Assembly: GCA_026389365.1 (NCBI GenBank)
Contig: JAPLHZ010000125.1
Span: 1 to 36,037 of the forward strand
DNA: 36,037 bases
Origin: Cyanobacteriota bacterium
GTDB taxonomy: Bacteria; Cyanobacteriota; Cyanobacteriia; Leptolyngbyales; Leptolyngbyaceae
Direction of reading: 5' to 3'
Positions 9,832 through 28,892 of this stretch are shown in pieces; the stretch's first letter is position 1; each line of letters begins with the position of its first letter. A program made the position numbers and the translations under genes. The notes below the pieces were generated by a model, which had not been told where the DNA came from, ran no database searches, and worked only from the letters and a program-made list of their open reading frames with translations.

Positions 9832-10317
9832 CTAGCTTAAGCCGCTGCAAATGTAGTCAAAGTAGACACCCATTTCCTTACCAGCATCAGCGCCGACTAA
9901 GGAAGCAGTAACTTCTTTCATAGCTTGAATTGCTTGAACAGTAGCGCCTACGGGAACTCCCAAGGAGTTGTAGGTTTCTTTCAAACCGTTGAGGACACGC
10001 TCATCTAGGATGGATGCGTCGCCTGCCAACATTGCGTAAGTCGCATAGCGCAAGTAGTAGTCCAAGTCACGGATGCAAGCTGCATAGCGACGAGTGGTGT
10101 ACATGTTGCCACCGGGACGGGTGATGTCCGAGTACAACAGGGACTTAGCCACAGCTTCCTTTACGATCGCGGCAGCATTAGCCGAGATGGAGCTAGCTGC
10201 ACGAACGCGAAGTTCGCCAGTTGCGAAGTAGCCCTTAAGTTTGTCCAGTGACGAAGAATCAAGGTACTTACCTTGAACGTCAGAGGAATTGATTACAGCA
10301 GTAATAGCGTCTTGCAT
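9832..10317 (-). CDS. apcB: Allophycocyanin beta subunit
   Basis: A 161-residue globin-like phycobiliprotein. Together with ApcA it forms the trimers of the phycobilisome core that pass energy to the photosystems. The chromophore region [20 protein letters not shown] contains the phycocyanobilin-binding Cys near residue 81, and the NMYTTRR segment with its Asn (usually methylated) precedes it. Length and sequence are typical. It follows apcA by 70 bases on the minus strand. An ATG start at 10317 is supported by AGGAAGTCGAAC upstream. Confidence 0.97.
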
Positions 10318-10387
10318 GTTCGACTTCCTTAATCTCGAATGTTTACTACAAAGTCAACGGGCTGAAACAGTCTCAGTATTCTGAAAA

Positions 10388-10873
10388 CTAGCTCATTGCG
10401 CCGATTACGTAGTCGAAGTAGGCTGCTGCTTCTGCGGCATCTTCGCCAGCAAGCAAGGACGTTGCAACACTCTTCATCGCACGTACGCCTTCGACAACGG
10501 CATCAATGGGGGTTCCCAAGGACTTGTACATTTCTCTAACGCCAACGATTCCGATTTCTTCAATAGGAGTAACGTCGCCAGAAACAACTCCGTACGTGAC
10601 CAAACGCAAGTAGTAGTCCATGTCACGCAAACAAGTTGCGGTCATTTCTTCGCCATATGCGTTGCCACCGGGGGAAACAACGTCAGGACGTTTTTGGAAC
10701 AGTTGGTCGCCTGCTTGCTTCACGATTCGCTCGCGAGCTCCTGTTAGGGTTTCAGCAATGCGAAGGCGCTTTTCACCACTGGTGACGAAGCCTTTAATGC
10801 GATCTAGTTCGCCTGGGCTGAGGTAACGAGCTTCAGCATCAGCGTTTACGATCGACTTCGTTACAATACTCAT
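10388..10873 (-). CDS. apcA: Allophycocyanin alpha subunit
   Basis: A 161-residue partner of ApcB in the phycobilisome core. The chromophore Cys lies in [19 protein letters not shown] (near residue 81). The N-terminal [20 protein letters not shown] is diagnostic for ApcA rather than ApcD or ApcF. A strong ribosome site (TTTTGGAGGAATCC) precedes the ATG at 10873. It is the first gene of a minus-strand apcA-apcB-apcC operon. The core-membrane linker gene apcE, which precedes apcA in many species, is not upstream here: the 460-base leader is followed by tRNA-Thr and fabG, so apcE must lie elsewhere. Confidence 0.97.
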
Positions 10874-24645: not shown

Positions 24646-25245
24646 ATGAGTTCTTGGACCGATCGCTTTAACTCCTTAACTGGCAAACACCGTATTGTTG
24701 TGGCCCGGTTATTTATTGCCTTGATAGGTGCAGAATCGACCACACTCTTAGGCGTTTTAAATCGGGCGGCCCAAGATGCGATCGAATCGGATGGAGACTT
24801 GGCAATCATGGGTGAATCCTTGGTTGAAATCTGTGAAAGCCTGCTTCAACGTGAAGCCAATTGGTCCTCTGTTCATAATGAAGGAGACGTTTTTTGGTCT
24901 GAAGAAGAGGCTAGCGACTATTTGAATGAATTATTTACCGATGCCACTCGCCGCTACCTGAGTGAGACGGATCAGTCTTCGGATGATCCCAATCAATCGC
25001 TCACCCTTCCCATGACCCCCAACGTCGTGGTGATGTTGACATTAGCTCTAGAAGGTGAAGCCCCCGATCTGGAAGCCGATCTGTCGAACGTTGAAGCGCT
25101 GCGCCGTGGATTAGCTCAAATCTGTACTATTCAGGCTCAGCGACGGTTACGGGCGATTCAAGTCAATTTTTCCCCTGATCAAATGGGTTATGTATTAACG
25201 GACGATCACCTGATACAGCAATTTCCCGAACTTATTCCGTTGTAG
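24646..25245 (+). CDS. Conserved cyanobacterial protein, DUF1517-like
   Basis: A 199-residue soluble acidic protein with no signal peptide or membrane segment. The first part is helical. The C-terminal third, VVVMLTLALEGEAPDLEADL followed by RRLRAIQVNFSPDQM and LTDDHLIQQFPELIPL, matches the pattern I know from DUF1517 proteins (a 'TL-A-EG' strand, then 'AV-V-W-P-' and 'L--DYP-L-PL'). Plant DUF1517 members are linked to acclimation of photosynthesis to fluctuating light, but that does not transfer safely to this short version. The start at 24646 has no clear ribosome site. The stop codon lies in a 17-bp tandem duplication. Confidence 0.6.
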   Translation: MSSWTDRFNSLTGKHRIVVARLFIALIGAESTTLLGVLNRAAQDAIESDGDLAIMGESLVEICESLLQREANWSSVHNEGDVFWSEEEASDYLNELFTDATRRYLSETDQSSDDPNQSLTLPMTPNVVVMLTLALEGEAPDLEADLSNVEALRRGLAQICTIQAQRRLRAIQVNFSPDQMGYVLTDDHLIQQFPELIPL

Positions 25246-25261
25246 AACTTATTCCGTTGTA
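25228..25261. repeat. 17-bp perfect tandem duplication across a stop codon
   Basis: GAACTTATTCCGTTGTA is present twice (25228-25244 and 25245-25261). The first copy encodes the final residues (ELIPL) of the DUF1517-like protein; its TAG stop straddles the junction at 25243-25245. The second copy is noncoding. Confidence 0.95.
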
Positions 25262-25311
25262 GAAATTTCTTTCCCTATGTTCTATTGATTTCCCCTATGG
25301 ATGGTGTTTTG

Positions 25312-26214
25312 ATGTTACCTAAATGTTGTCTTTTCCTATTGCTCCCCTTTGCCCTCACGGCCTGTGCTTCATCTGAACCCGCGATCGGTCCCGATACCAA
25401 TTCGCCCGCAGAGGTTCGGTCCGGCGACCAAAAAAAAGCTGATGCTCCGATCGCATCTCAAACTCCAATTCCTGATGGTGAGTATCCAGTTCAACAGGCT
25501 AGCTTCGATGACTCAGACGGTGAATATTCCTTGATGCTCTTGGATGCTCCTAGTGCAAGTTTTAAAACGCGCAAACTCCAAATGGCTCGTCTGACTGATG
25601 AAGAAATTAAAGAAGGTAAAAAACCTTATCTTAAAGTTGAAAATCAACAGCCTTCGCTTTATTTAACGGAAGACTTCAAGCTTCAATATGTTCATAATGT
25701 CTCTGAAGAACGAGTGAATCCCAACACTGGACGTACCGAAACCACCGTTGTCCGTCAAGAATCAAACTTTTGGTCGCCCTTTGCTGGATCCTTGGCGGGT
25801 GGTTTGGCTGGTCAGGCGATCGGCAGTATGCTCTTTCGGCCCCAATACTATGTGCCACCCCAGTTCCAGTCTGGTGGAGGACCCCTGTCTGGCTATGGTG
25901 GCTATGGACGAACCTATGGCGATGCCGTCAATACCTATCAACAACGCTATCAGCAGCCCCCCGCCGTCGAACGGAACCGCACAGCATTTCGCACCAATGG
26001 CCAAATCCGATCGGGTTCGACTGGAGGCGATTCAGCCAGACCTCCTCAGGACATGACTGGGCGCGATCGTTCAACTGGATCCGGTTTTGGGTCAAGTGAT
26101 TTGAAAAACGGGACAACCACACCATCTCGAACCGAATCCAAACCTCGGTCCGGTAGCTTTGGCAGTGGTCGGAGTTCCAAGTCGTCCGGCTTCGGCAGTG
26201 GTCGTCGTCGCTAG
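25312..26214 (+). CDS. Predicted lipoprotein with Gly/Ser/Arg-rich tail, unknown function
   Basis: A 300-residue protein from ATG 25312. The N-terminus is a lipoprotein signal: MLPKCCLFLLLPFALTAC, lipobox LTAC with Cys18. Upstream in-frame starts (25285 TTG, 25297 ATG) only lengthen the signal. A moderately conserved-looking middle (about 60-150) is followed by a glycine-rich possible membrane-inserting stretch, FAGSLAGGLAGQAIGSMLF (about 155-175), then low-complexity sequence (QFQSGGGPLSGYGGYGR, then many Ser, Arg and Gly residues) ending SSGFGSGRRR. I do not recognise a named family. Glycine-zipper plus disordered tail suggests an envelope role. It follows the DUF1517-like gene by 66 bases. 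Confidence 0.65.
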   Translation: MLPKCCLFLLLPFALTACASSEPAIGPDTNSPAEVRSGDQKKADAPIASQTPIPDGEYPVQQASFDDSDGEYSLMLLDAPSASFKTRKLQMARLTDEEIKEGKKPYLKVENQQPSLYLTEDFKLQYVHNVSEERVNPNTGRTETTVVRQESNFWSPFAGSLAGGLAGQAIGSMLFRPQYYVPPQFQSGGGPLSGYGGYGRTYGDAVNTYQQRYQQPPAVERNRTAFRTNGQIRSGSTGGDSARPPQDMTGRDRSTGSGFGSSDLKNGTTTPSRTESKPRSGSFGSGRSSKSSGFGSGRRR

Positions 26215-26259: not shown

Positions 26260-27885
26260 GTGATTGAAGTCGAAGTGCATCAACAACTCCGGGCCTTACT
26301 GCGGCAACAGACCGATCCCCACTGGACTCATCATCTAACAATGGCCCGTCTAGTGGCTCGGGCCTTACGTTTGGGTCGAAGTGCCTTAATTCAGACGGGG
26401 ACAGAATCCGGATCCGGTGCGCCCTACCGATTGAGCTATTTAATGCCCTTATTGGTATGGAAGGCCCCGGCGATCGTTGTTGCTTCTGAATCCGTGCAGC
26501 AATGGTTATTGCAAGTTGAGGTGCCTCGTCTTCAACAGTGGCTGGATGTCTCGAAATCAGTGCAGATTATTACTCCCAACTCAACGCCCACTGAATTCTC
26601 TGGCCTTGCCTTTGTAACGCCGCAACTGTGGCTAGAGGATGCTCTACGACCGACCGGAGGTCATCAGTTCAAATCTCCAAAAATTCTCCCGGCAGGCATA
26701 TTAACCCTGATTGACGGCGTAGACGATCTTGATGGTTGGGTGCAAGAAGTCTTGAGTTTAAAAATTTATGGACACGACTGGGATCAGTTGATGTTGTCCC
26801 ATCCCGGCTTTCGAGAAACGATTCGAGATCTGCGGATTCGTATCACCCACAGTCTCTTCCAACATCCTGCCAATCCTTATAATTGCCATGTTTTAGAGGA
26901 CGACGATCGTCTCCCAATTTACGAAATACTATCCCAGCTTCAGCAATATTCACCCCTACCCAAATCTTGGGCTGAACTGCTGAACCATCTGACACCCCGA
27001 TCGCAAATTGCCTCTAATCGAGAGTCCAATGGAGAATCCTTGTCCGCTTATACCCATGATCCCGGATTGTTGTCAGCCCAAGTCGATCGTCAATCCGGCA
27101 CCTTCACCCTTCAGCACAGCCCCATTCGCCTTGCGTCGCTCCTACGACCGATTTGGCAACAGCAACCCACTGTCTTAATTGGCAGCGCCTTGGATCTTGA
27201 TGCCAGTGCTGATACCTATCGCCAAACCCACGGTCTCGACGACTTGACCTGTATAAAATTCGCTCCCCCGCGTCATGAATCCTGCGTTCAGCTTTATCAG
27301 CCCGATCGCATTCCCATGCCTAACACCCCCCAGTTTCAGCCAGCGCTCCTAGCCGAACTTCGACAAATTCTGTCGCGATCGCACATTGCAGCGGGCTTAG
27401 TGGTTATTCTGGTTGGCGATACTCCATTGCGAACTCAAGTCGGCGCAACCCTCGCGGCTGAATGGGGATCACGAGTTCAAGTCGATCGAATCCCTGAAGC
27501 CTCAAACGGCATTTTGGTCGCAGGTTGGGATGAATGGACTCAGTTTCAACAAGCAGGAATCGTGGGCGTGCCACGCTGCATTGTAATTGCAACCTTACCC
27601 ATGCCATCGTTGGAGAATCCCCTAGTGGCAGCCCGTGTCAAAGATTACAAGCAATTGCGGCAGGATTGGTTTCGCTTGTATTTGCTCCCGACCGCACTGA
27701 TGGCAATTCAACGGGCTGTGTTTCCAGTCCGATCGGCGCGTGGGTTGGTGGCGCTTTTAGATAGCAGAGTTATCCACCGGATCTATGGCACCCAGGTACT
27801 CGCCGCGCTCGGTCCCTATGCCCGGTTGAATTATCTGGACGATCGCTGGAATGAAAATTGGGACGACAGCGGAGACGATCGGTAG
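26260..27885 (+). CDS. DinG-related helicase-like protein with degenerate ATPase motifs
   Basis: A 541-residue protein with the layout of a DinG/XPD-type superfamily 2 helicase. The N-terminal HLTMARLVARALRLGRSALIQTG corresponds to the Q-motif/Walker A region, and the C-terminal LPMPSLENPLVAARVKDYKQ, LPTALMAIQRAVFPVRS and GLVALLDSRVIHRIYG match DinG motifs IV-VI. But Walker A reads TGTESGSGAPY (residues 46-56) without GKS/T, the DEAH box reads IDGVDDL (151-157), and the QGxGRxIR motif VI reads QRAVFPVRS (484-492). Iron-sulfur cysteines are not apparent. It is therefore probably not an active helicase. I believe this form recurs across cyanobacteria, which would mean a conserved non-ATPase role. 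GTG start at 26260. Confidence 0.65.
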   Translation: MIEVEVHQQLRALLRQQTDPHWTHHLTMARLVARALRLGRSALIQTGTESGSGAPYRLSYLMPLLVWKAPAIVVASESVQQWLLQVEVPRLQQWLDVSKSVQIITPNSTPTEFSGLAFVTPQLWLEDALRPTGGHQFKSPKILPAGILTLIDGVDDLDGWVQEVLSLKIYGHDWDQLMLSHPGFRETIRDLRIRITHSLFQHPANPYNCHVLEDDDRLPIYEILSQLQQYSPLPKSWAELLNHLTPRSQIASNRESNGESLSAYTHDPGLLSAQVDRQSGTFTLQHSPIRLASLLRPIWQQQPTVLIGSALDLDASADTYRQTHGLDDLTCIKFAPPRHESCVQLYQPDRIPMPNTPQFQPALLAELRQILSRSHIAAGLVVILVGDTPLRTQVGATLAAEWGSRVQVDRIPEASNGILVAGWDEWTQFQQAGIVGVPRCIVIATLPMPSLENPLVAARVKDYKQLRQDWFRLYLLPTALMAIQRAVFPVRSARGLVALLDSRVIHRIYGTQVLAALGPYARLNYLDDRWNENWDDSGDDR

Positions 27886-28026: not shown

Positions 28027-28269
28027 ATGGCAAATTCCGATCGCCCGAATCAAAAAAAGTCTCCTCAGCGCCTAAAAGCTGAGCGCGCTGAACAAGCCCG
28101 TCTTCAAGAGAAAATTCTTCCTTGGACCAGTATCACCCGTCAGCAAGCTAACCAATTTGTCTCTATCACCACCACTGGCGCTTGGGTTAGTATTGGCATC
28201 CTGATTGCGTTCTGGGTGACGGTGCGCTTTCTGGGTCCAGCGTTTGGCTGGTGGGTTCTGTCGGACTGA
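28027..28269 (+). CDS. Small one-helix membrane protein, cyanobacterial, unknown function
   Basis: An 80-residue protein with a charged N-terminal half rich in Lys, Arg, Gln and Glu (SPQRLKAERAEQARLQEKIL), then PWTSITRQQANQFVSITTTG and a single hydrophobic helix (about residues 52-74) ending WWVLSD. This pattern occurs in a small conserved cyanobacterial family that I cannot name with certainty. The charged part should face the cytoplasm. The start has no strong ribosome site; ATG 28027 is the only reasonable one. Confidence 0.65.
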   Translation: MANSDRPNQKKSPQRLKAERAEQARLQEKILPWTSITRQQANQFVSITTTGAWVSIGILIAFWVTVRFLGPAFGWWVLSD

Positions 28270-28496: not shown

Positions 28497-28892
28497 GTGT
28501 TCACAAGACTTGCTCAACACCACAGTCAATTTGTGAAGGATTTGGTAATGAACCTTCAAGCACTGGCCATTGTCCTTGAAAATCAAGGTTACATCGCTTC
28601 TTGCTATACCTGTGGCGGCGAAATGAATAGCGCATCATTCATGGTTAGTTTGGCCGATAGTCATTTGATTCGGTTTTTAGTCTCTGACTATGGGATCACT
28701 TGGACTGAGATGCGAGACGATCGTGAACTCATGAAACTTGAAGGAGCCGAAGCCATTAGCCAACTTCAGGAGCTAGAAAACATTTCTAAATTCCCGAGCC
28801 AAGCGCAAGACATGTTGATGGAAAAAGCAACTCCCATTCATCCTGTTAAGCGATCGCCCATGATGGATTTAGAAGCTGAGCTAGTCGGATGA
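28497..28892 (+). CDS. DUF1815 family protein
   Basis: A 131-residue soluble protein whose first 95 residues (FVKDLVMNLQALAIVLENQG, CYTCGGEMNSASFMVSL, IRFLVSDYGITWTEMRDDRE) match what I know of the cyanobacterial DUF1815 family. The tail after about residue 97 is variable. The start is GTG at 28497: AAAGGAG (28482-28488) is eight bases upstream, an unusually clear ribosome site. The CYTCGG pair of cysteines could bind metal or be redox active, which is speculation. It is separated by four bases from the hydrolase gene, so the two are probably translated from one message together with pipY. Confidence 0.7.
   Translation: MFTRLAQHHSQFVKDLVMNLQALAIVLENQGYIASCYTCGGEMNSASFMVSLADSHLIRFLVSDYGITWTEMRDDRELMKLEGAEAISQLQELENISKFPSQAQDMLMEKATPIHPVKRSPMMDLEAELVG

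Follow-up and report, generated by a model that had tools for sequence, protein, structure and literature searches.

Why should a DinG-like helicase keep an intact reading frame once the motifs needed for ATP hydrolysis have gone? The question is raised by a gene in a 36,037-nucleotide stretch of cyanobacterial DNA (hereafter the window), which the initial annotation had described as an intact 541-codon frame with a DinG-like layout, altered Walker A, DEAH and motif VI sequences and a retained non-helicase role, for example as a scaffold or DNA clamp. The frame proved to be single and uninterrupted, with zero internal stops, and the gene is present as one copy in the source genome. Its product belongs to a group already named sDinG (short-type DinG) in a 2025 review (PMC11981726), the available text of which gives the function as unstudied. 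The positions of the gene, its altered and remaining motifs and its conserved neighbours are collected in Table 1.

Table 1 Features of the sDinG locus in the window.
Feature	Position	Strand	Basis or remark
sDinG-type DinG homologue, predicted ATPase-dead, 541 aa, GTG start	26260..27885	+	ORF, profiles, model, patterns
Former Walker A, TGTESGSGAPY (residues 46-56)	26395..26427	+	Alignment with canonical relatives
Former DEAH box / motif II, IDGVDDL (residues 151-157)	26710..26730	+	Catalytic Glu and His gone
P-motif equivalent LPMPSLE, motor domain 2 (E. coli DinG 614-619 region)	27595..27615	+	Profile alignment
W470-F471, invariant in 47-row alignment	27667..27672	+	F471 aligns with ssDNA-stacking F638 of E. 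coli DinG
Former motif VI, QRAVFPVRS (residues 484-492)	27709..27735	+	GR of QGxGRLxR gone
DUF2839 protein, 80 aa, conserved downstream neighbour	28027..28269	+	Pfam; basic N-terminus, one hydrophobic C-terminal segment by eye
DUF1815 protein, second conserved downstream neighbour	28497..28892	+	Pfam

The relationship to DinG was assessed with profiles and with predicted structures. Pfam Helicase_C_2 matched the window protein with an E value of 3.7e-4, under its gathering cut-off, and a sequence search of the PDB with the single protein as query returned only one chance match (E 0.68). Profile-profile comparison with E. coli DinG and 15 canonical relatives covered residues 22-528 with a probability of 99.9 and an E value of 9e-37. 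An AlphaFold2 model built from a 47-row family alignment reached a mean pLDDT of 91.0 and a pTM of 0.89, and with this model as query DinG structures ranked first in Foldseek (6fwr_A, E. coli DinG, E 3.7e-19), while VIA-align superposed it on S. aureus DinG (8zef_A) over 477 residues with a Z score of 31.7 and an rmsd of 3.3. The model contains two RecA-like motor domains arranged as in DinG, and the DinG-like layout of the initial annotation, for which the lack of such a fold had been named as a refuting outcome, stands over the full length of the protein. A highly divergent family member from a 1.7 Mb genome (L031) likewise adopts the DinG fold (pLDDT 86.8; 9ii8_A, E 8.5e-16). On the combined evidence of profiles and predicted structure, both the ancestry and the fold of the window protein are those of DinG.

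The three altered strings align where canonical relatives carry GxGK[ST], DEAH and QGxGRLxR. To see how far this loss extends, the same patterns were searched in 154 distinct family sequences, of which 153 are full length in one frame and one (L004), a fragment without its N-terminal half, was excluded for motifs I and II. GxGK[ST] and DE[ACMG]H were found in 0 of 153 and QxxGRxxR in 0 of 154, so that the altered motifs are fixed, as the orthologue alignment proposed in the initial annotation was meant to establish, and their loss is the state of the whole sDinG group rather than a peculiarity of the source genome. Canonical controls gave motif I in 16/16, motif II in 16/16 and motif VI in 15/16, the one miss (L189) being explained by a truncated frame split over contigs. 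Scored by aligned position, motifs I and II are kept in all 14 canonical rows and motif VI in 13, one row being cut at the locus end (four of the 14 are second loci of genomes already counted); the canonical DinGs fetched from other classes retain the ATPase motifs. The initial annotation had understated the loss: alignments with canonical DinGs show that the insert forming the Fe-S domain, located between motifs I and II, has gone too, and the only cysteines of the window protein are residues 209, 331, 342 and 440. By sequence, then, the ATP site is gone across the whole family, with no single new motif in its stead, and we infer that sDinG proteins have no ATPase activity.

In a sample of the phylum, 195 of 386 genomes gave a match, 183 of them in the class of the source genome and 12 in other classes. 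Within the class the family is present in 183 of 186 genomes, a total made up of the matches and the three misses listed, which agrees with a DUF2839 search (185 matches and one class miss); both searches scored the first few candidates per genome. The three genomes without sDinG (G056, G327, G389) belong to one genus (f23 g41), possibly Gloeobacter, a genus without thylakoids; they gave no sDinG match even at E <= 1 and no canonical DinG match, and they retain DUF2839. A search of relatives found the family in 57 of 58 genomes, including the source genome, and a wider locus search, silent on homologues outside the phylum, yielded 551 confirmed loci, the 80 listed all having cyanobacterial titles. 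Proteins of Nostoc records also belong to the family, for example that of N. punctiforme NIES-2108 (L123, 49% identity).

The matches in other classes are of a different kind, since the loci fetched from 8 of the 12 genomes all encode canonical DinG (8/8). In a 43-row tree, in which L031 and E. coli DinG form long branches, the sDinG group makes up one side of a branch with 100/100 support that occurs in all 200 bootstrap trees; sDinG would have a single origin if the root falls among the canonical rows, a placement that the tree itself leaves unproved. A canonical DinG from another class (L173) matched the window protein with 94.0 bits (2e-24), against 47.0 bits for L050, a canonical DinG from the class of the source genome, and a DWF..Y.LP.A stretch is common to the other-class DinGs and sDinG; few as these comparisons are, they fit vertical descent. 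Only 9 of 184 class genomes yielded a clearly canonical DinG (E below 1e-70), and all nine carry sDinG as well (eight by a second match, the ninth being G455).

The Fe-S cysteines of the canonical proteins vary. All eight own-class canonical DinGs (L049, L050, L185, L187, L188, L189, L190 and L191) have Ser at the first position (C120 in E. coli) and keep the other three, and among seven other-class DinGs six keep the first cysteine and lose the last, while L172 loses the second.

The gene order sDinG-DUF2839-DUF1815 is conserved. Of 149 distinct loci for which 600 bases or more of downstream sequence are available, 112 have DUF2839 on the same strand within those first 600 bases and 37 do not; in the f2 clade (genomes of 1.6-3.7 Mb) it is present in 13 of 13 loci, 32-78 bases from the sDinG match. 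DUF1815 follows within 1500 bases in 68 of the 143 loci that extend at least 1450 bases downstream. The presence of DUF2839 in the three genomes without sDinG indicates that the linkage is not obligate. Judged by eye from its sequence, the DUF2839 product looks like a single-span membrane protein. Further out, at least 34 of 94 wide loci have a prephenate/arogenate dehydrogenase gene on the opposite strand no more than about 8 kb upstream (adjoining sDinG in 15), and at least 8, among them 5 of 5 f2 loci, have a convergent recA on the opposite strand downstream; the identities of these two neighbours were checked on two examples each, and the counts are lower bounds, since only 71 of the wide loci, which may repeat genomes, have 7500 bases upstream and only 66 have them downstream. 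The ancestral order looks like tyrA / sDinG-DUF2839-DUF1815 / recA, since broken up in many lineages.

Other features of the region can be noted briefly. Identified neighbours in the window are rpoB, rpoC1, rpoC2, DUF1517, DUF2839, DUF1815, SepF, P5CR, an alpha/beta hydrolase and YggS. The interval between rpoC2 and sDinG (24646-26211) encodes a DUF1517 protein and a second, lipoprotein-like protein that is rich in Gly, Ser and Arg and has no Pfam family; relatives of both likewise precede sDinG in L053 and L083. Two adjacent 161-aa phycobilisome proteins are encoded at 9832-10873 (-), a length typical of allophycocyanin subunits. No structured RNA reached its gathering score between 24400 and 30600.

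What the protein might still do was approached by mapping the ssDNA contacts of E. coli DinG given in the available text of its structural description (PMC6300356: F638, the P motif 614-619, F615, Y636, R117 and R211) through the profile-profile alignment. F638 corresponds to F471, which is invariant in 47/47 sequences, as are P447 and W470, and the P motif corresponds to LPxPSLE, well conserved in the family. F615 is replaced by Ile or Met and Y636 by Asp, a residue also found in 7/7 other-class canonical DinGs, while R117 and R211, which lie beside the Fe-S domain, are without counterpart. As far as the alignments tell, motor domain 2 retains part of the ssDNA track, in agreement with the available text of the review (PMC11981726), in which DNA was modelled on motor domain 2 alone.

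From these observations we propose, with roughly even credence, that sDinG, dead as an ATPase, works independently of nucleotide as a scaffold or ssDNA holder, with the DUF2839 protein as candidate partner or anchor. A DinG/XPD-type helicase, most likely vertically inherited, would early in the class have lost the Fe-S domain, the ATP-binding residues, the catalytic glutamate and the arginine finger, and would afterwards have been retained as a non-motor protein. It would most likely serve as a static, nucleotide-independent platform: the P motif and the invariant Trp-Phe pair would let motor domain 2 hold on to a single strand, or to a junction with an exposed strand, and a partner would dock at the conserved N-terminal helices and the remodelled cleft that once took ATP, the genetically linked DUF2839 protein being the best candidate for this partner. 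Several findings count against parts of this proposal. The window protein and the family are slightly acidic (pI 6.3 and median 6.1, respectively), with no hint of strong DNA binding, four of the mapped contact residues are replaced or lost, and the review found motor domain 2 to be the only part on which DNA could be modelled. A LexA box in its cyanobacterial form occurred in 0 of 145 upstream regions (0.66 expected from shuffles), and 11 further f2 loci have yet other replacement stretches. DUF2839 is found in three sDinG-less genomes and is missing close downstream at 37 of 149 loci, and the sDinG frame is split in three draft genomes. The role suggested in the initial annotation is supported in its general form, with the motif loss fixed and the gene under purifying selection; its specific identity as scaffold or DNA clamp does not follow, the ssDNA elements being kept in part and the contacts beside the Fe-S domain being gone. 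A much broader version strikes us as improbable: that in one ancient event the phylum's DinG motor became an ATPase-dead, DUF2839-tethered membrane holder of single strands or junctions, serving core DNA maintenance in most photosynthetic cyanobacteria and replacing the active DinG that nearly all of them lack.

The same acidity and the missing Fe-S domain, together with the conserved order of sDinG, DUF2839 and DUF1815, would also suit a protein that has left nucleic acids entirely and acts as a pure protein scaffold, for instance as an assembly factor on the membrane side that joins DUF2839 and DUF1815 in a process peculiar to most photosynthetic cyanobacteria, and the restriction of sDinG absence in the class sample to the f23 genus points the same way. 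We consider this a real possibility, if one we tend to doubt: the elements of motor domain 2 that contact ssDNA in DinG are invariant or well conserved, the f23 genomes have DUF2839 without sDinG, and convergent recA, in 8 of 94 wide loci and 5 of 5 f2 loci, is a weak pointer to DNA metabolism.

That sDinG still hydrolyses ATP by way of non-standard residues is, by comparison with the ssDNA-holder proposal, very unlikely. Such an activity could appeal to the intact two-motor fold and to the Walker B aspartate (D152), which 43 of 47 aligned members retain, but that residue is Pro in all 11 f2 loci L161-L171, and the P-loop, DEAH and motif VI patterns occur in none of the tested members. In the 47-row alignment, which includes one f2 row, the former P-loop (GTESGSGAP) is variable, with 2.02 bits of entropy versus a mean of 1.38, and according to the available text of the review (PMC11981726) ATP could not be modelled in the Nostoc protein. 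Other stretches at the former ATP site are well conserved against the same mean (YRLSYL 0.41, DGVDDL 0.67 and QRAVFPVR 0.57 bits); YRLSYL, directly after the former Walker A, is conserved in most members and not in the f2 clade.

The family is under purifying selection. Estimates of dN/dS (Nei-Gojobori) fell between 0.036 and 0.101 in nine of nine pairs of relatives, the four values from pairs with dS above 1.5 being rough, and were 0.129 and 0.147 in two canonical DinG pairs; 31 columns are invariant over the 47 aligned sequences. The check for purifying selection asked for at the outset is therefore positive. In the draft genomes G011, G012 and G013 the two parts of the gene occupy different frames on the same contig, through either assembly error or real breakage, and in G178 two sDinG matches within one 590-aa frame reflect an insertion. 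A decaying pseudogene or annotation accident, as the dead motifs, the Pfam score under its cut-off and the three split frames might suggest, is refuted by the intact frame here, dN/dS of 0.04-0.10, a motif loss fixed in the orthologues, the presence of the gene in 183/186 class genomes, full-length single frames in 153/154 distinct sequences and confidently predicted folds for two highly divergent members. With starts placed by alignment, 129 of 149 distinct orthologues begin with GTG (16 with ATG, of which 11 are low-scoring f2-like members; 3 with TTG; one unclear), which may reflect selected low expression.

If the proposed history is right, a single loss of the motor left a helicase shell that nearly all sampled genomes of a major bacterial class have retained, mostly without an active enzyme alongside; sDinG would then be a core cyanobacterial protein and a clean test of what a helicase fold can do without ATP. 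Two warnings for annotation follow. A DinG-derived name would imply a helicase activity that is very probably absent from sDinG, and the PADLOC model PDLC01439, labelled type IV CRISPR DinG, also matches sDinG. That model is a generic DinG model, on which E. coli DinG scores 515 bits, and assignment to type IV CRISPR was rejected. A phage origin was rejected as well: none of 19 pattern matches in IMG/VR was confirmed as a relative, and no PHROGs family matched at E <= 0.1.

Compared with known systems, the window protein has the fold and domain order of DinG/YoaA (E. coli 6fwr and 6fws; S. aureus 8zef and 9ii8; NF053712) and the WF and D.R...YG stretches of motor domain 2, but differs in having no Walker A, DEAH box, motif VI or Fe-S domain, and its score with NCBIfam YoaA (NF053712; E 1.8e-23, 83.1 bits) is far below the equivalog cut-off of 680. 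The fold is shared with the wider XPD family, represented by CasDinG/Csf4 (7xf0_B, Z 29.8, rmsd 3.7, 460 residues aligned) and XPD (8rev_A, Z 24.6, rmsd 4.2, 473 residues aligned); unlike CasDinG of type IV CRISPR systems, sDinG has no cas gene among its identified neighbours. RecC and AddB, of the SF1 lineage, are inactivated helicase subunits that serve as scaffolds and are partners of an active motor; by analogy, sDinG may have retained a helicase fold for holding DNA without ATP hydrolysis.

The closest comparison is with sDinG as described in the available text of the review (PMC11981726), where ten DinG-like subgroups were drawn from one representative per order across 192 orders. There, as here, the proteins are cyanobacterial, consist of two motor domains and a small Arch with no Fe-S or pseudo-Fe-S domain, and have lost the ATP-binding residues and the DNA-binding residues of motor domain 1; the window protein has the same layout (motor domain 1 - Arch - motor domain 2, no insert) and the same loss of ATP-binding residues. 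On one detail the models give a mixed picture: for the Nostoc protein an extra helix alpha3a in the ATP site is described between beta1 and alpha3; DSSP assigned no helix between E42-45 and H57-66 of the window model and a 4-residue helix (46-49) in the L031 model. Among the literature matches listed for essentiality, none concerned this gene. Near-universality in the class, clade support, constraint, the near-absence of active DinG and the DUF2839 linkage are new relative to the available text of the review, and none was seen in print among the open-licence papers listed. The range given there, three orders (Nostocales, Chroococcidiopsidales and Pleurocapsales), widens here to 183 of 186 class genomes, including the f2 genomes, and the window protein is thus a new member of a group that had been described without being characterised and whose known range is greatly extended.
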